Shown here in pieces: positions 7,218 to 55,135 of a DNA stretch of 64,000 nt. The stretch's first letter is position 1. Every line of letters starts with the position of its first letter. A program made the translations under genes and the position numbers. The notes below the pieces were generated by a model that saw only the letters and a program-made list of their open reading frames with translations, made no database searches and had not been told where the DNA came from. This stretch comes from Cliona cf. orientalis. Taxonomy: Eukaryota > Porifera > Demospongiae > Clionaida > Clionaidae. The stretch covers positions 19,553,775 to 19,617,774 of the forward strand of contig OZ005689.1 of assembly GCA_963930775.1 (NCBI GenBank), read 5' to 3'.

Positions 7218-9212
7218 TAATTTCTTTTTTTTTTCTACTTAGTGTATATGTCTATAATACTTTATGCATTTCAATATGCACAGGATACACAAGTAGCAAT
7301 AAGCTAATAGCAAAGTGCACCCAAAACTAAATAAAGATAACTATGAGATAGTAGTATGGTATAATAATTAAGACTATTGTGAGCGTAAATGGTACTTAAA
7401 TGAGTGGTAAGAGGTAGACAGATTAATGATATCCTTAGGTAAGGAGTTCCATAAGGAGGAAGTATGAGGTACAAAGGAGTAAAAATATGAATTTGTGCGA
7501 GCAAATGGGACTTGGAGTTCAAGCTGGTGTGAACAACGGTTTGGCTGTGTTAAGTTTCGAAGCTTAAATGTTTCTGCTGGGAAGTATGATAGTTTATATA
7601 AAATTCTATACATTAGCCCGAGTCTGGCATGTGTCCTACGTTCCTGAAGTGGCTGAAGGTGGAGGAGTTCCAATAGAGTATCATAGCTCTCATCCCAGTG
7701 CGCTGTAGCGATCCTGCAAGCAAATTTCTGCACGTCTTCCAGTGCCTTCTTGTCCTTTTCGAGATGAGGATTCCACACATGGCAGCCGTATTCTAGGTGA
7801 GGTCTTACAAGCGAGAGATATAACTGTTTTAGGACATCCTGGCTTACATTGCCGTAGAACCTCCTGTATAACAAGCCAAGGACTTTCCGTGCTTTGAGAC
7901 AGATAGAGGAAATGTGAGATGACCAAGATAGATCAGCAGTAAGAAGACCAAGGTATTTGTAGCTTTCTACTTGTTCTAGTGTACCATTATTTAAGACAAG
8001 TGCATGATGGGGAGTAGTAGGAGTCTTCTTTCTAGAGATGATCATACTTTTACACTTCAGGCTATTCAATTGGAGGTAAGTATCTGAAGACCACTGCTCG
8101 ATGGCCGTAATAGACTGCTGAGCATCAAGATAGTCATCTGAGCAACTGATACTATGATAGAGAACATCATCTGCAAACATGTTAACTATTGAACTAGGAT
8201 GAACAATCACCCTTGTGAGGTCATTGATGTAGACAAGAAATAAAACTGGACCAAGAACAGATCCCTGAGGAACACCAGATAAAACAGAACAGCTTTCTGA
8301 TTCATCTCCATCAACAATAACTGCCTGCTGTCTATTGCAAAGGTAGTTATGAAGCCAAGTAAGAATGCAGTTGTCCAAGTTCAGAGTGGATAGCTTGCGG
8401 AGTAGCGGTTCATGTGGTACCGAATCGAATGCTTTGCGAAAGTCGAAGAAAATTGCACATACATCGTTTCCTAGCTCGAGCTCTTTTAGCCAGTCGTCCG
8501 TACATTTAATGAGAGCAGTTACAGTCGATCGGCCTTCCAGAAAACCCCACTGGTTGTTCGAGATGAAGTTAAGGGATTGAAGGTGATCCATGAGAATATT
8601 GCATATGTGCCTTTCTAGGACTTTGCTGACAATAGGCAATAATGAGATTGGACGATAACATGACGGAGAACCTGTTGAGGAGCTTTTAGGAATCGGTACA
8701 ATTAAGGAGCATTTCCACTGAGATGGTAACTGACCCTATTGTATAGAGAGATTAAACAATTTCGTTAGGGATGGAGCAATGGCATCAGCAGTGTGCTTTA
8801 ACATTGATGAGGAAATTCCATCCGGCCCATTGGATTTTGTGACATCTAGTGTCAGTAGCAAGTCATGTACTTCATCTTCAGTGCAGAGTAGAGACATTTC
8901 AGTATGGTTGTTTCGATCATGGTTGCATATCAAGGTCAGAGGCAGAAAGGCAGTATTGAAACAAGAGGAAAAGAAATTGTTCAGCATACTTGCTTTTTCA
9001 GTGCTTTGTGAAGCAACAGTTTCACCTTGAGTTAGTGTAGGAATTGAATTCTGATTTTTGCTCAGGAACTTCACCGTCTTCCAGAATGTCTTAGGGTCCC
9101 TTGGATTCAGCTGTGCAAGGTAGGAATGTTTGGCAGTGCGAAGTTGCTGCAATGTTTGGTTGCGGGCCACTTTATATTTTGAAAAGTCACCAGATATTTT
9201 GGCCTACATGCA
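7218..9212 (-). mobile_element. 5'-truncated LINE, FADD-type reverse transcriptase
   Basis: The minus-strand reading frame covers the end of a linker and the reverse transcriptase, then the C-terminal tail. Motifs in order: DPKTFWKTVKFLSKNQN, NGPDGISS, SCYRPISLLPIVSKVLERHI, AIFFDFRKAFDSVPH, GVPQGSVLGPVLFLVYIND, the catalytic MFADDVLYHS, YKYLGLLT, and LEYGCHVWNPHLEKD. These place it in the Jockey/CR1/Rex-like group of non-LTR elements. The only break in the reverse transcriptase is one in-frame TAG (8736-8738) between LFNLSIQ and GQLPSQWKC. The frame closes at 7374, and an A-rich tail (T-run on plus, 7225-7240) marks the 3' end. No endonuclease domain is present, consistent with 5' truncation. 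It is inserted in the C2H2 transposase-like gene in opposite orientation and is probably fairly young. Confidence 0.9.
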
Positions 9213-18785: not shown

Positions 18786-20711
18786 CTACATTTGAGAGGG
18801 TATTTCTCTAGTCTCCTCCAAAAAAAACAAGCCACAAAAGACCTCTATTTTATGGTGGAGCACTTTGGATGAAGTGTACGAAAGAGTCTCCTCCATGTGC
18901 CTGAGTTCTGTCTCAACAGCATCTTTCAGAGGTAATGCAACTTTCCGTGGAGTGTAAATGGCATGTGGTACTGCATCCGATTTGAGGCGGATGATGGTAT
19001 GTTCTCCTGTGAATGTGCCTAATCCAGTGAAGAGATCTGAATACTCTTTGAGAATGTCGTTATTCTGGATACTGTCGACATACTGCAACAAACTGAGAGC
19101 TTTAATAGCAGGTACGCCCAATAGATTATTAGAAAGATCTTTCACCCTCTGGACTGAGCACTTCTGCTTTGGTGTCAGGTTGACTTCAGCTTCCCCTACG
19201 ATTTGTAGAGGCTTGCGATATGGACCACAGAGGTTCTTGGTTGCTTTTGTCATAGTACGTGGATTTCGTAGCGATTTCCAGGCGGATTCCGAAATTGCAG
19301 TCACTTCAGCGCCAGTATCAATCTTAAAAGGTAAGGGCTGATCCTCAACATTGAGTTCAATTTTCCAAGCATTCGAATCCCCTCCTACTGCATTCAGGTA
19401 AGTGGCACCAAGACAAAACTCTTCTTGTTCTTCCTCAGTACTCTCGGATTCTGAGGTTTCTTCACAGTATGTTACCTTAGCTACTGTTTTAGAGAGACAT
19501 TGTTTGGCAAAGTGTCCCTTATGGTTACACTTACTTACGACAGATTTCGTTCCTTGCGGGGCATTATTGCACCGGATGGGATTCTCTCCAACATCGTCTG
19601 CACTTCATAGTGTGTCGTTTTCCCATTTGGGGAGGTGAGTTGAAGCGTTTCTTCTGTGGTTTTTTTGGTTGCACCGAATCCAGCTGTGATTTGTTTCCAG
19701 AGGCTAGGATTTGTCCTTGCTCCTTGACTGCTTCTCGCTGTCTAATTAGTGTTTTTGCTTTTTCCAGTGTGAGGCCTGCCTCCATCTGCATACGCTCTGA
19801 AAGGCGGTCCCTGATCAACTCATCTTTCATAGCCCCATATTCGCATTTGTCCGCCATTTGGTGGATTGCTGTGATATAAAGCTCAGCTGATTCGCCCGAT
19901 TCTTGGTTTCTCTGGTTAAAACATGCTCTTTCAAAAATTTTGTTCTTTCAAACCTTAAATGGGCATCGAACTTTGCAAGCACATTATTATATTTCTTGTC
20001 TTCATCTGATATGCCTGTCATGTTCAGGACATCTTCCGAGCCTTCCCCCATACAGTAGAGTAACGTACTGACCTGTCTTTCTTCTGATTCTGTTGAAAGG
20101 CCAGCCGCCAGTCGATATTGTTGGAAGCAATTTTTCCATTTTCCCCACTCTTCAGGTTTGGTGAAATTGAAGGCACAAGGCGGTCTAAGGTTTGAAGGAG
20201 TAGCCATTTGACTCCATCCCACTCCTGACACCATGTAATGTGCTTGTATCGAATCGATTGAAATAGATAGTTTTATTTATCTTGTCTTATGACAGTACAA
20301 GAAGCACATGGTAAATCATATCACATGACTATTACATAAGCATGCATACAACTGGTAAAGATCGTCACAATAACACACACATTCTAGTTCAGTGACAGTT
20401 AACACTACACCCATGCAGTCTTAATTAGACTTACCAAACATATACACTGATGCTTTGGTAAACATGGAACTCAAAATGTATTAAAAGGGATAATTATGGC
20501 AGAAGCTTAGGCTAATTACACATGAAAGCTCTAGAATCTAGTTCAAGTACGTAAATTAGATTATATGATCAGCTAGCTTCATGATGATTTAGTTTGCGTT
20601 ATAATCTAAGTTGGCAATTAGTTCTAGGCGTCATTTCAATGTCACCTAGAGACAATATTATCACCAAAATTCACCCTGATCATTTAATTTTTATCCACAG
20701 CAGAGTTTACA
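18786..20711 (-). mobile_element. Fossil Gypsy-type LTR retrotransposon, 5' part
   Basis: An old LTR element on the minus strand. Visible parts in order are one LTR (about 20234-20711), a primer-binding-type site beginning TGGTGTCAGGAGTGGG, a gag-like region (PEEWGKWKNCFQQYRLAAGL), a protease-end region, and the start of reverse transcriptase (YTPRKVALPLKDAVE). It is of the Gypsy type often annotated as K02A2.6-like. It is partial and broken, with several breaks, and no second LTR is seen. It is a fossil, probably of moderate age since the protein signatures are still easy to read. Confidence 0.8.
20234..20711 (-). repeat. Probable LTR of the Gypsy fossil
   Basis: The segment next to the primer-binding-type site is bounded by TGTAAAC and TTACA in minus-strand reading, as expected of LTR ends. 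Length is about 478 bp. Because only one LTR is seen, the outer boundary rests on the TG...CA rule alone. Confidence 0.45.
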
Positions 20712-22383: not shown

Positions 22384-23764
22384 ATAATATTATACAGTAA
22401 AACACACAAAGGACAACACACAGATATCCTTGTGCCATCTTTCTGTCGCCTGTCGACGGAAGTGGTTTCGGAGGGATCAGCAAGAGTGGACCTATATTTC
22501 TATATTTACCACTTTTGTTATCTTTCCAGGCTGTAGCAACCAGATTTCCACTCTGACGGAAGGCTGAATTTCGGATGGATGCTGCTTTCTGTTGGTCCTG
22601 ATTGTGCCACATCCGTAGGTAACCTCAGACAACAACTTCGTCAAGAGATAGATTGAGGTAAAATAATTATCAAAGTACAACTGGTGGTGCCTTCCTTTGA
22701 CGTATTCTGCCAAAGTAAGCACCACCTTCTCTCCCATACTTATCTTCCTGTTTCCAGTCACACCTGTATACACATTGAAATAGTACATATACCCATTACG
22801 TGCATCCGCCATGGCCCACACCTTGAATCCTCTCTTGACTGGCTTCAAAGGGATGTACTGCTTCATCGAGGATCGACGTTGGAAAGGTATCATAACCTCG
22901 TCAATGCTGAGTTCGCAGTGAGGGTAATAGGCAGACTGGAAGTTGGTCTTCAATGCAGATATCACTGGATCCACTTTTTGAAACCTCGAGTAGCCTTCTC
23001 CTCCCCTCGCGGGTAGGGAGTCGTTTTTGACTAGATGCAAAAAGCGGGTAATCTCCTTGAATCTTTCCCTTGAGATTCTGTCGGCAATTTGGGCGTGTCG
23101 AAAATACTCGCATACTGACCTATAATTTCTTTTTTCAAGGAGATGGTTTATTCCCATGAGGATCATAAACCCCATGTAAGTGTGTATCTCTTCCTTAGGC
23201 GTTGACCACACCTTGTCAGTACCCTGAAGAACCTGCTCTGCGTAGTGGCGTGTTTTGTCAACAATCATTTGCACTAGACTGTCATCAAATAACAGGGTGA
23301 ACGGACCAAGTGGGTCTTGGGGGAGTGGTACCCTTGGTCCTGCTTGTTGGGTACAAGGGGTGACGACAACTGGGCGTGCTTGTGTTGACCACTCTGTAAT
23401 AAATTACCATTATTGTTTTATATTACTGTGTACTTGTGTAATACCCTTACTAACTGTATCAGGTGCTGACTGATTGGTGTGAGCTCAAGCCAGTGTCCAA
23501 GTCGGAGTTAGACCCATCACTCTGGCTGTTATCAGGAGCTACAAGTTTGGGTAAGTTCGAGCATTTTATAGCATGTAAATTCATGGGTGGGCAACACAAC
23601 TGCATGCATGTTTGTGAGCATGCAAACCCCATGTGTAAATCCACATCCATACTTATGGAACATATCCTTCACATCTTTAGTGTATATAACTGGATTTCTC
23701 TGTTCATAGACTGACACGATATATCTGGAAATACATGCACACGTACATGCACATATGCACATGC

Positions 23765-25544: not shown

Positions 25545-27714
25545 TTGCGATGTCTATGCAAACAGCTGTATACCGTCTTGGAGTTTTACGTCGTGGTAGC
25601 TGTGGTTTTTCAACATAGATGTCATCTATTTTAGCCATTGTGCTTACCTTTATCCAAAATAAATCATAATAATCCTCGGTTCTAAGGCTCTGGGGAGTAT
25701 TTCTGCGCATTTAAGGCCTGGGTCAATGTAGAATTAAGTACTTATGTTGCTACCGTCATGACATACAGTAATATAATAAGTTATTTCTATAAGCATGATT
25801 CAGTAGTCATAATAGATTTGCTAATTAGTAAATAAATGACATCACCCGCTTTAGTAATATAAATCGATGGAGGTGGATATCAAAATCACCCCAGACGGAC
25901 ACCACACACACAGATGGTTTCAATGTAAACTTACTGACAACTGAAGGAGGTTCCAGTAGGTAGGCCAGAACAGTTGAAGCCTATATCTCACCGCCCTTCG
26001 TCGTCATCAGGGGGACACGTTTACGATAGCTACTCGACTGATTTATAACTTCCAACTTTCCCCCGCCGTATCCAACGTTTAATCATTGTAATTCAAGTTA
26101 TCCTACACTAAATAAGTCTGTCAAGCGGTGATAAGACCTCCGCCTCGAACGCTGTCTACTTTACGAACTTTCTAGCTAGCTATACTGCAACGTATCACAT
26201 GACTTTACACTACTATAAATAGGGCGTGGTCACGTGCGCTTGACATTCGGTGTGCGCTATTTGGAATATCGTATTCTGTACTGGACCCAGGCCTTAACTA
26301 CGCGGAGATGAATTACCATTCTGCCTACTTGTTGACCTTTAGCTGCAGATATACTCTTATTTTGCAGGGTTATGCTGAGATTGTATGCATGACACAGCAA
26401 CATCTCACCAAGGAATACGCCAAAGAGAAAGTCAAACTTCGTCATTTGTGCCGACACTCCACCTATCCTAGGTTTCACTGTCTCTAACTACCTCTATAGC
26501 TTCTTCCCATGTTTGCTGAAGTGATGCATAATTGCACATAATGCTAAAAAGCGACTGTGCATGTACTGTCCACCTTGTTGGACACAGCACACGCACACCA
26601 GATGAATGATAATCACTAGTAGCATCACATGCACCCTTCCCTGCTGGAGAATGCTTGATCAACTTTGTCATTTCATAAAATGTCTCCAAAGCATTTTTGA
26701 TTAGTTTTGACTGCTTCACTGTATCACAGATGGCAATATTGATGGAATGACCGTAGCAATGCGTATAAACTGCCCTCGGCTCTTCTTGAGTCCTCTTAGC
26801 AATACCAGACTTAGCTCCACTCACAGGACTCGCCCCATCATAGCACTGTCCTCTGAGCTTGGACAGGGGTATATTCATTCGGCAGAGAGCATCCTTTGCA
26901 GCCATGGTTAATGTAGCAGCATCAACGGTTGGAATGTTGTAAACTCCAAGAAAGTCTTCATTCACCCACGGAAACCCATTGTACGACAATCGTTGATTGC
27001 TCCTTATTGAAGATATCTGTTGTTTCCTCCATCATCAAGGTGATAAAGGGTGATTGTTGTAGAGACATACAGCAACTTCTCTTAGGACATTCACTGCCAA
27101 GATCCTCAGAATATCATTCTGATTTTGATGTGATGTATACTTATTGGCCTTTTGTTTCAACCAATCAATCATCACTGGATCATCTTCTCCCTTCAGCTTC
27201 AGTAGCTGAAGGAAGTTTCCTGCTCATCTCCATCACCCCTCAAAGTTAACACCAAGTGCCGTATGCTAGAGAGAATCTTTAGAAACATCCTATTCGTAGC
27301 CTTTTCCTGGCCATGTGGGGCAGCTGCTTTTCAATATTTCTTGTAGTGGATGGAATAGATACCATAACATCCACAACCTTATGGCAGGCACTTAGCGGGT
27401 GATATTTGAAGGCCACAGTTGCATCCTTCCACTTAGAATAGCTGGATGAAATTAAATAATGATGGTTCAGCATTGGACTCCATCTTCTGCTTGAGTGCAG
27501 ACACACAAACGTGGCAGTAAGCCAGATCATTCACCTCGTCGTAGCGCAACCAAGTCCACTGCTTGAACCAAGCTTGCTGGAACGACCTCCACACAACATT
27601 CCTTTTCCCAAATAGGCATTTGGGATAAACAAATGATTCAGAGGACTGGTGAGGAGCTGGGGGAAGATCAGGAATCACCTGCAAATGCGAGCAGCTGGCC
27701 ATATTTACATGCAC
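25545..27714 (-). pseudogene. hAT transposase, ZMYM1-like, split by a TTAA MITE
   Basis: Minus strand, N- to C-terminal. A TTF-type zinc-finger region: FVYPKCLFGKRNVVWRSFQQ, AWFKQWTWLRYDEVNDLAYC. The SNxWKDA block: YSKWKDATVAFKYHPLSACH. A catalytic-region block: LRGQCYDGASPVSGAKSG, CYGHSINIAICDT, LCPTRWTVHAQSL. Then RIGGVSAQMTKFDFLFGVFL and, past the MITE, QSLRTEDYYDLFWIKVSTMA and KIDDIYVEKPQLPRRKTPRR, closing at TGA near 25545. This order matches the hAT-derived ZMYM1/'TTF zinc finger' proteins. Several frame breaks are visible (for example near 26470 and between 26990 and 27280), and the insertion at 25715-26293 interrupts the tail. Terminal repeats of the parent element were not found. Confidence 0.8.
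25715..26293. mobile_element. TTAA-flanked MITE, 579 bp
   Basis: The ends GGCCTGGGTC and GACCCAGGCC are exact inverted repeats, flanked on both sides by TTAA (25711-25714 and 26294-26297). TTAA duplication points to mobilisation by a piggyBac-type transposase. The insert interrupts the hAT transposase tail between VIHLRVVK and QSLRTEDYYD. The interior is non-coding. Confidence 0.85.
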
Positions 27715-50390: not shown

Positions 50391-50820
50391 AGAGGTGACT
50401 TTGCTTGCATCAGTGAGATACGTTCCCTATTGCCAAAGCAAACCAATGTTATGATAGGCACTGACTGCAACTGCTAAGAAAGTGGTGATCAAGAGTATCG
50501 AAACGAGAGATTGTTATATACTTTCAAGAAATCCAAATCAGCCGAGTATATGGTACACGGTCCTTCGAAAGCCTCGTGACCCCATTTCTATTATTCCTTC
50601 CCTTCAACAATCTGGTATGTGACAAAACTAGCGATAAATATCTCTGTTTTTGGAAAACCCACGATGACACCTGTCATATTTATGAGTCTCTACTGCTCTC
50701 GAGTTAGCACACGAAAATACATTATATCCAGCAAGCACCCATCCAGAAGTTGAAATGTAAAATCTGTACTTGCATGTTAATGGTGTGCAGCAAGAACAGG
50801 TCCTAAGGCCACTGTTAGTT
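50391..50820. other. No clear gene between helicase relic and transposon
   Basis: A plus-strand stretch (about 50520-50610, RNPNQPSIWYTVLRKPRDPI) looks faintly coding but leads nowhere. A 78-codon minus frame at 50864-50628 crosses the transposon end. Nothing is supportable. Confidence 0.35.
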
Positions 50821-51327
50821 GTAAACGTGTTTCTGGTCATCCGCCCGCATCCTTCCTGGTGCACCGCACAGTTTGGCCATTATCAATGACGTCACGCCAT
50901 TATCCAGGAAACCACACCCACACGAACAACGTGGGCACTTGTTAGTACCTACAGTACAGTCGAGGCTTCTTGCACTTTGCGAAGAAAGTGTATTTATCGT
51001 GTGGAGTTCTTGATCTGTGGGAGTTTGGACGACGACGGCGATGAGCATAATCAACTTCACAGTTTATAACAATTATACTAGAAAACGCTACTGCCTTGGC
51101 ACATTTCCAATGTTCACCCGCCAACTTTGACTTTTCGAGATCACTTTCATCAAGAACTCAGTGAAAAATGTCAAAGCGATTGCTCACTTTCTGAAGTATT
51201 CGTGGGGAAGGCGAAGGACGCCCTGGACCTCGTCAACTCTGACCTTGTGATTTTGGAAGTCACACCAATCTTTGGTCGATATGTGAAGTACACCGTCGTT
51301 GATCAGCAGAATGTTCAGGTACGATCG

Positions 51328-51335
51328 CTCTCTCG

Positions 51336-51382
<47 letters not shown>
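51328..51382. repeat. (TC)n(AC)n microsatellite in transposase intron
   Basis: CTCTCTCTC followed by about 17 AC units, within the first intron (51319-51475) of the DDE transposase. Confidence 0.9.
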
Positions 51383-51384
<2 letters not shown>

Positions 51385-52577
51385 AGTGACATGCATGTGC
51401 GCACATGCACTTACAGTTGATGAGTGAGTGTATAGTGTGCAATTGATTTAAAAATGTTTTGTGTATCTGACACAGGTGAGATGTGAAGTCAATGCATTTT
51501 CGGTCATGATGAATGCTCAACGGGAATTGGATAGGAAGTGTTTACCAGACATGGTCGAGTACCCACGAACGAACAAAGAAAGACTCAGAAATGATGTGAT
51601 CAACTTTTTGATGGAGAAACTATCAGTGGAGAGCAGCAGAAGTTTCTTCTAGTGGCAGCGGCTTTGTACAAGCAATGACGGATTTTGCCTCTGGACAATT
51701 GATGGCCATCATGATGTGTTCTACAAACAAGGCTTCGCTCTTCCCACTTTTGTTGGAAAGTTTGTTGCATACAATTGCCCAGAAACCTCAAAACATCGTA
51801 AGCGACAAAGAGGAAACATGTGTGGTAGCGTTCTGAAATCAATATCGTCACACTTGTTCGATTGTCTCCAAGGGATGTACTGGGACAGAGAGAACTGGCG
51901 AGAGTTGAAAGCAGATGTTGAAGAAGTTGCACAAGCCCTTGCTAACTACGCAAGGTATTTGCAAAAGAGCTACAAAAAGACTCTGCTCAATCAGATGCGT
52001 ACTTCACCAGTTCAACAGCTCTCTGACGGGCTAACATTCCAATTTCTGCCAGTATGATCTGCCGATACTAGTTCTTCACTCACCACTGAACTGTGCGAAC
52101 GTCTCAACGAGTGCAGTGACTACGAGTACCTTCAAGTGGAGCAATACTGCCCTACCCAGTCGATGCTGAAATATAATTTGGTGAAAGCAATGAAAAGTAA
52201 TGGATTTCCCTTCCCCACTGCCCTTGTGACTTGCACACATGGAAATAATGTTGGAAACCTCAATTTTTTGTGGAAAATCCAAGGCGATCAGGAGTCAGCA
52301 TTTTCTGATAGTCAGAGGATGGTGGAACAGTTGAAGCAACACATTCCTACCTATCACACTAGAGCTATGAGGAAAGAAGCCTTCCACCAGTTTGGACGTC
52401 TGACTTCATCTGTGAAACCAGCAGCCATGAGGGCTATCTACAGTTCTCTCACAAGTATGTATCTGATTAAATTAGTGGAGTTGTAGTCCCACCCTTGGAT
52501 TTGCAACAGTGTATGTACTGGTGCCTAATGAAATTAGAGCCACTGCCCATTTACCTTAGCCTATGGACAAGCATTTT

Positions 52578-52662
52578 GTGTGTGTGTCTGTGTGTGTGTG
52601 TGTGTGTGTGCGCGTGTGTGCGTGTGTGCGTGTGTGCGTGTGTGTGTGTGTGTGTACGCGTG
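52578..52662. repeat. (TG)n microsatellite in transposase intron
   Basis: TG and CGTG repeats within the second intron (52455-52778). Frames of Cys-Val repeats across it are artefacts. Confidence 0.9.
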
Positions 52663-55135
52663 CACGCATGTATCTGTATATCTGGGTGAGGGGGAAGGGA
52701 ACATGATTGCATGGGTGCGTGCGGATGTACTATATATGTGTGTGCAACCTTTAATGGTGCTCTTCACATTCTCTGCAGGAGATGCTTCAGCAGCTTCTCA
52801 GTTATCTGAAGAAGAGGTGAATGAGAGAGTGCAACTTTATGTTGACATGAAGGACCCTGACATTGTAGTCGACTTGCAATCACTCAATTCAGGGCAAAAA
52901 AGTAAATACGATGCGTTTTGGGACAAAGTTGAGAAATTCCTGCAGGAAGATGTAGGTTTGGCTGTTGAGGAGCGAAGACACTCACAAGTGACGCATCTAG
53001 CAAGAGTCATTTCTGTGAGAGACTTATTGGAGCAAGTTGCAGCTCGATGTCCTCCAGAAACACCCATTCCATCCCGTTCTTGGTTAAGTCTCCAGTTCTG
53101 GCCGAAAAATGCCCACGCTCAAGCTCGAATTCACTACACGGGTCGCTTTAAAGTTAAATATATGGTTCAGGCTCGTCAATTCAGAAAAGCTCACGAAGAC
53201 TCCCATTACGCTGCAGCGATCTTCAGGTATCAGAGAGAGCAAGCTGTGATGTTTCGAGAGGAGAGTATGTTTGTTTGCATGGACGATAAGCATAGAGTAA
53301 AAGTTGGTGAACCCAACTACCCCGTAGCCGCTGCTGAGAGGGGAAGGAAGGTGTTAGTGCATCTCAACAAAACATTTGAGGTCGGTGACCACGATTTTAC
53401 GAAGTTCAGCCTGATTCCTTCTGTTACTCTTTCAGTAGATATTCCTACTGACGTGGCTGATTCGTGGTATACAGGTGACGTGTTCATCGGTTTAAAAGAA
53501 GGAGTGTTTGAGCCCTCATTACCACATCGGCACATGGCAGAGCTTCTGGACATAATTCATTCACAGGATTTACTCTCTGACTAGTCTGTACTCTTCCTGT
53601 ACAGTGATGGTGGACCCGATCACCGCTTAACTTACATCTCCGTTCAGTTAAGCCTTATTGCTCTTTTCCTACGGTTGGATTTGGACTACCTCTGTGCAGC
53701 CAGGACAGCCCCTTGCCATTCTTGGCACAACCCAGCAGAGCGAATTATGTCCATTGTCAATCTAGGACTTCAGTGTGTAGGCTTGATGAGGCAGCAGATG
53801 AGTGACGAACATGAGGCCATGGTTGCAAGTTGTAACAACACTTCACAGTTGCGACATGTTGGAGAAAAAAAGCCCGAAATCATCCCGGCAATCAGTGACA
53901 GCATTGCTCCAGTCAAGCTATTGCTCAGTAATGTTTTGCAATGGCTTAAATTACATGACAAGCAATTCCGTGTCTTCTCAGCTGCAACAGAAGATGATCT
54001 GAAAGAACTGTGGTCTGAATTGGACAGTGTTGACAAGTCACTCGAGTATGGAGGTCAGTATCGCAAAAAGTGCCTTGAGAGTCATCCCGATCTAGTTAAC
54101 TTCCTCAGTCATTGCTGTAAATCACGACACTACTCCTTTGCAATAAAGAAGTGTGGGGATCCATCTTGTTCGATCTGTAAACCCGTACGAATGTCCAGAG
54201 AGATGTTTGAGAAGCTAACGTATCTCTCAGATCCTGTTCCCGGGCAAGATGGCCACTATCTTAGTTTTGCCGAAGTGTACAGTTCTCCAACTACGGAGGA
54301 ACACAGACCAAGCCTACAAGCTCGGAAAGGTTGGCAGAAATCTCTTCCTTTTGTTGCCAGTGTGCAACATGAGAAAAATGCAAACTGCATGTTTCAGTGT
54401 GAAGAATGCCAGATGTGGCGTTTGGTTTACAGCAAGTACAAGCTCAGTGCTCAGGAGAGGCAGACCCTGGACAATGCTATGCTCTGGAGAACTATACGTA
54501 CAGTTGTGGTGCCCAGCTATCTGAACTTGGCTTAGAAGGTCGCCTAGGAGATGATACTGTCTGCGTACGAGACATCCGTTGCTATGAGCCAGTAGAAAAG
54601 CTAAATTATTCAGTTGGCACCTATGAACTTATTTGCATTTTTTGCTGCTCAAGTGAGAACTTGACATCAAAGGAGGACTGCTATCCTCAATGTTGTGATT
54701 GTTCCAGGAAACAGCCCATCAAGAAAAGGAAATAGTGTTTTGTACTATTTTTTGTGTGCTCTGTGGTTTGTATAACAGTAACAGTACTATGTATATTGTC
54801 TGACTAAGTGAGATAATTGAATTTATTGCACAGGATATGACGTCACAATAATGGGATAATGAATAATGACAACCGCCCGCCTGCATTAGTAGTAGGGAGA
54901 ACCCTTGACCAGAAACACGTTTAACAGAGCTTTTCCACTATCTGAACCAGTGTCCCAAACCTGATGATGCTACATCTGTGCAATCAACATTGAACTACTT
55001 GGAAGCATGCAGTAAGCTCTTCGAGAATGGATTTTTAAGTGCTGTCAGAATGAGAGAATCACACCAAGAAGTTCTAATCAACATCCAAGCTGGTTACCAC
55101 TTCTCAGAGTGGAATTCATTGCTAAAAGGTTTATT

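Follow-up and report, generated by a model that had tools for sequence, protein, structure and literature searches.

A decayed DNA transposon in the sponge Cliona cf. orientalis with a probable place in the ISAzo13/TP36 group

Introduction

The closest described systems to the element reported here are the eukaryotic Zator transposons, whose founding paper is said to be one by Bao in 2009, and the bacterial ISAzo13/TP36 group, in which TP36 is what we take to be the family modelled by PF07592. Zator has been related to bacterial TP36 (PMC7386202), and it is stated to resemble ISAzo13, both yielding 3-bp target duplications (PMC10045372). In one survey of molluscs, Zator ranked with the more sparsely represented superfamilies (PMC10294476). 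Repbase merges groups when their PSI-BLAST searches converge with E below 0.005 (PMC4455052).

In our study, a 64,000-nucleotide stretch of the genome of Cliona cf. orientalis (hereafter the window) was analysed, in which a near-complete transposon had been predicted from the sequence. The element was found to span 50807 to about 54930, and is probably the decayed remnant of an autonomous cut-and-paste DNA transposon that belongs to the ISAzo13/TP36 group, with its place on the Zator (eukaryotic) side of that group. Elsewhere in the window (7377-8735, 18789-19604, 22495-23403, and 26471-27031), other mobile elements were represented by an RVT_1 reverse transcriptase, a gag-type protease, a piggyBac-type DDE_Tnp_1_7, and a weak DUF4371 piece.

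Results

Ends and gene of the window element

The left terminal inverted repeat (50807-50839, plus strand) starts with GGCCACTG. Its true terminus was the GGCC at 50807, immediately preceded by the left target site duplication TAA (50804-50806), for which no recognisable partner was present on the right. The GGCCA terminus was shared with four coding relatives elsewhere in the genome (L039, L040, L042, and L043) and with the miniature copies described below. The right terminal inverted repeat (54906-54930, minus strand) was decayed in its outer part, reading ACAGAGC where the corresponding stretch in other copies reads ACAGTGGCC followed by TAA or TTA. The longest exact arm pair, found by script between 50701-51100 and 54701-55100, was 18 nt long (TAAACGTGTTTCTGGTCA, 50822-50839 and 54906-54923). 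The inverted ends that had been predicted were present, yet the left terminus lay 14 bases outside the limit of 50821 given to it and the right one had decayed. The motif TGACGTCA, predicted as subterminal, did occur near both ends (50887-50894 and 54838-54845), but family-wide conservation was not observed: it was absent from L040, L041, and L042, present once outside the element in L039, and present once inside it in L043, and is no family feature. The right flank (54909-55133) read as a protein-like stretch of 75 codons, which belongs to a 121-codon frame and had no match in Pfam.

The gene lies on the plus strand. Exon 1 (51041-51318) has a possible ATG at 51041, with the frame of the homologous part running from 51082 and its KTLLPW matched by eye to the L039 protein; exon 2 (51476-52454) encodes the N-terminal half of the transposase, and exon 3 (52779-54735) the catalytic core and the cysteine-rich tail. 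Intron 1 (51319-51475, with a CA repeat) was absent in L039 and L041 by eye, and intron 2 (52455-52778, with a TG repeat) was absent in L039, L041, L042, L043, and L015. Both had GT-AG boundaries and phases that fit the intronless proteins of the relatives (intron 1 by eye), in agreement with the three-exon gene originally proposed. The proposed damage of three stops and one frameshift was likewise borne out, with in-frame stops at 51650 and 52055 in exon 2 and at 53582 in exon 3, and a shift of frame near the C-terminus, somewhere from about 54403 to 54535; should translation begin at the ATG at 51041, the frame probably shifts a second time upstream of 51082. Both introns carry such CA/TG repeats and are absent from the compared relatives, as if they arose with repeat expansion in this lineage. 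Around residues 250-285 of its 1132-codon frame, L039 carried about 32 extra residues that were absent from L041, L043, and L015 and are possibly an in-frame intron.

Other copies in the genome

The genome searched comprised 217 Mb, with the window on contig C1. In a DNA search that passes over simple repeats and very common words, the query 50821-51400 matched 37 other places at 79-83% identity, all of them over query bases 1-63 only. The protein segment 53585-54532 matched 66 pieces, itself included (65 others), of which the best other piece was 56% identical over most of the query and short pieces reached 73-76%. Together with the decayed terminus, these matches give no support to the suggestion that the insertion was fairly recent, and the window copy is, on this comparison, old and broken. 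Contig C1 makes up 17% of the assembly and held 42 of the 66 transposase pieces, which are not independent of one another, while miniature ends were without enrichment there (5 of 37); C1 may be a chromosome that retains coding transposons.

Ends were read at the seven DNA matches L002-L008 and at five coding loci fetched at 7-8 kb (L039-L043), with L010 to L038 left out. Some of the relatives had frames of about 890-1130 codons (for example 1132, 1079, 985, and 952). As expected if the inverted ends flank other copies of the gene, ends were present at four of the five coding loci, giving element lengths of 3738-3945 bp; none were found at L041 when exact arms of at least 10 were sought. Paired inverted-repeat motifs were present in all seven DNA matches, which proved to be miniature copies, six of 279-573 bp running from GGCC to GGCC and one (L002) without a right terminus. 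Matching 3-bp target duplications flanked 10 of the 12 loci (coding 4/5, miniature 6/7), the duplicated bases being TAA at L039, L040, L042, L006, L007, and L008 and TTA at L043, L003, L004, and L005. Since less damaged relatives and miniature copies occur elsewhere in the genome, the window element is real, and its combination of ends and gene is more than chance.

When the L042 element was removed in script with one TAA, a 521-codon frame remained across the junction, one side of which matched the Helitron_like_N domain (E 2.5e-10). Insertion at this site was precise. L039 and L040 were 99.35% identical, with 25 differences in 3861 aligned bases and 17 gap columns, and their flanks differed; their lineage therefore moved recently. 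Judged from these sequences, the family is diverse and includes near-identical copies. An alignment of one miniature, L003, with the window element showed that the two have most of their outermost 80-100 bases in common at either end, so such copies are probably mobilised by a transposase of the window type or one near it. A 673-codon frame that ends in a Tesmin/TSO1-like CXC domain (E 5.6e-7) lies on the minus strand (L039:5983-8001), roughly 1 kb away from the L039 element.

Catalytic triad and cysteine-rich tail

Three acidic residues had been proposed as a DDE triad, with their conservation in homologues set beforehand as one of two points on which the proposal would stand or fall. These residues, all on the plus strand, are Asp 1 (53282-53284, the first D of DDK), Asp 2 (53606-53608, in SDGGPDH), and Glu (53738-53740, in NPAERIMS); 43 residues separate Asp 2 from Glu, giving the active-site layout D-D-43-E. 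Among the rows covering each site, D53282 was conserved in 14/14, D53606 in 17/17, and E53738 in 17/17, in a 17-row alignment that includes near-duplicates and took [SA]DGG[PS] frames, with TDGG frames left out. A wider pattern listed 24 frames, 22 of them with the Glu pattern and 20 with DDK; three of the four frames without DDK begin downstream of or very near its place, and the fourth, L033, lacks it. The distance from Asp 2 to Glu was 44 (43 between) in 22 of the 24 listed frames. The Glu pattern of the script was not matched in L028 and L035, the alignment giving the Glu of L028 as NMAER, and in L040 the block reads NPVEG with the Glu kept. The conserved residues of the family fall in three motifs, with an Asp in each of DDK and [ST]DGGPDH and the Glu in an N-x-x-E-R block. 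The cysteine-rich tail, also part of the original prediction, held up in the relatives, its cysteines being conserved across family clades. The core is inferred to have an RNase H fold; a fold of the window core alone had a mean pLDDT of 31.8, which was uninformative on both that fold and the placement of the triad.

Profile link to ISAzo13

No transposase in Pfam, NCBIfam, or the PDB was matched by the core in sequence searches, and the PF07592 model did not report it at E up to 10. The one hit in the latter search was DUF7491 at E 0.035, far under the cut-off. Searches with two short patterns yielded 28 matches in viral contigs and 68 in prokaryote genomes, with 0 confirmed relatives in either. 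The core had been considered distinct and unassigned; that held as far as the Pfam and NCBIfam transposase models go, but trimmed profiles placed the core with ISAzo13/TP36.

The ISAzo13 set consisted of 13 loci identified in plasmid records by similarity; four of them were scanned, and 4/4 matched PF07592. The family set consisted of 12 core rows after L028 fell out (its Asp 2 context lay outside the script pattern), 10 of which were kept by hhalign; the 12 are not independent because near-duplicates are included (for example L016/L017, L012/L039, and L020/L037). Trimmed cores matched ISAzo13 in hhalign at E 3.1e-8 in a first run, and at E 4.8e-7 (probability 92.5) when the run was repeated under different settings. 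The ISAzo13 profile scored 12/12 family cores above 480 shuffles; in the first run the twelfth, L043, had 4.6 bits, barely over a reversed decoy at 4.5. Profiles of 7 or 5 ISAzo13 sequences gave E 2.2e-6 and 1.1e-7 with 11/12 cores each, and with four cyanobacterial copies alone the hhalign match weakened to E 0.0016. Reversed family alignments did not match (E 0.15 to 0.81), and without trimming, six ISAzo13 sequences gave no significant match to the family (E 0.42). The reverse direction was weak, the family profile finding ISAzo13 at a best E of 0.0094 with 8/13 above the best decoy. The aligned blocks cover the three acidic residues, DHDF, and PxxSxxNxxE. The comparisons with trimmed cores indicate that the transposase core is homologous to ISAzo13 transposases.

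An IS630 profile (5 sequences, three of only 114-147 residues) recovered 0/12 family cores, with hhalign E 0.7. ISAzo13 and IS630 themselves matched over 38 columns only, outside the core; the method therefore misses deep links between cores, and its negatives are weak. In a tree built jointly from 11 rows of the family and 9 of ISAzo13, which left out L012 from the family and the short ISAzo13 sequences L045, L046, L049, and L056, a single branch separated the two sets with support of 100/100. The distance between them was long, at more than 5 changes per column.

Discussion

Superfamily placement

TWA duplications are a mark of PIF/Harbinger, and together with the GGCC ends they first suggested a divergent element of that kind (PHIS). 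Starts of AG/GG or GGG in the PHIS groups Pangu and NuwaI, given in PMC4482050, also agree with the GG-starting ends of the family. Against these likenesses, the core had no link to an IS5 profile of 7 bacterial sequences, which scored 0/12 cores above shuffles (hhalign E 0.31); there was also no Harbinger or IS5 domain among the Pfam matches, and a scan of the proteins turned up no Myb/SANT domain. Because of the IS5 control, this explanation was ranked low, and we consider it highly improbable. Besides its single long frame, the L039 element contained an antisense frame of 155 codons with no Pfam match, and it might also include a spliced small gene. Two other candidates disagree with the target sites: for IS630-Tc1-mariner proper a TA duplication would be expected where the 3-bp TWA was found, and Kolobok would duplicate the 4-bp TTAA where the flanks agree over three bases.

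Within the ISAzo13/Zator reading, the family could be an ordinary catalogued member of the Zator superfamily, perhaps already in Repbase. The bacterial relative and the 3-bp duplications are as stated for Zator (PMC10045372), and the hhalign link is of the same order as the Repbase PSI-BLAST criterion (PMC4455052), but the family went unreported by PF07592, which is Pfam's model for that bacterial relative; we give this a little less than an even chance. The family could instead form a eukaryotic superfamily of its own, with Zator plus ISAzo13 as its sister and with the long N-terminal part and the zinc tail as its marks; for this the long distance to ISAzo13, the lack of a library transposase match to the core, and the tail cysteines kept across family clades would speak. 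The profile link to ISAzo13, still at E of about 1e-7 to 2e-6, counts against such a separation, which we hold as a serious but tentative option, somewhat short of the halfway mark. This link, set beside the Repbase criterion, favours one superfamily. The literature searched, in the parts accessible and with Repbase and most subscription papers outside its scope, showed no such family.

Proposed mechanism and significance

In the ISAzo13/Zator-type mechanism that we propose, the transposase (about 1100 residues in the relatives) would bind the inverted ends starting with GGCCA, and its DD43E active site would cut both ends, by a chemistry assumed from the group. The ends would then be joined at positions three bases apart at TAA or TTA, and host fill-in would produce the 3-bp TWA duplication. 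The cysteine-rich tail probably aids DNA or chromatin binding. The scheme builds on the observed ends and duplications, the conserved triad, the ISAzo13 profile link, and the miniature copies with like ends.

The ends and the target site are defined and nearly identical open copies exist, which makes activity of the family assayable, and the tail raises the idea of chromatin-guided insertion. Annotation led by Pfam probably misses this lineage, as no Pfam transposase model recognised the core.

Comparison with known systems

The likeness of the tail to a described domain was partial. A match to the CW-type zinc finger (PF07496) was found in 3/13 members, below the cut-off of Pfam; the CxxCxxWR block scored 23.9 bits in L041 (E 4.3e-5) and 19.2 bits in L039 (E 1.3e-3) against a cut-off of 27.5, whereas L042 and L043 were without the tryptophan and had no PF07496 match.

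Compared with ISAzo13/TP36 (PF07592), the SxDxK, DHDF, DGG/DNG, and SxxNxxE blocks align with the family, and 42 residues lie between Asp 2 and Glu (by eye, in L047) against 43 in the family. The annotated ISAzo13 proteins inspected are about 190 to 700 residues long, whereas those of the family relatives are about 1100, and the cysteine-rich tail of the family was absent from the six ISAzo13 proteins aligned. The 3-bp duplications of the family are as described for ISAzo13 in PMC10045372, which gives Zator the same duplication and a relation to ISAzo13; Zator enters this comparison by description alone. The family would best be read as a divergent lineage of the Zator/ISAzo13 group whose transposase has both a long N-terminal part and a tail rich in cysteines, and it has the look of a diverged branch within a known kind rather than of a wholly new one.
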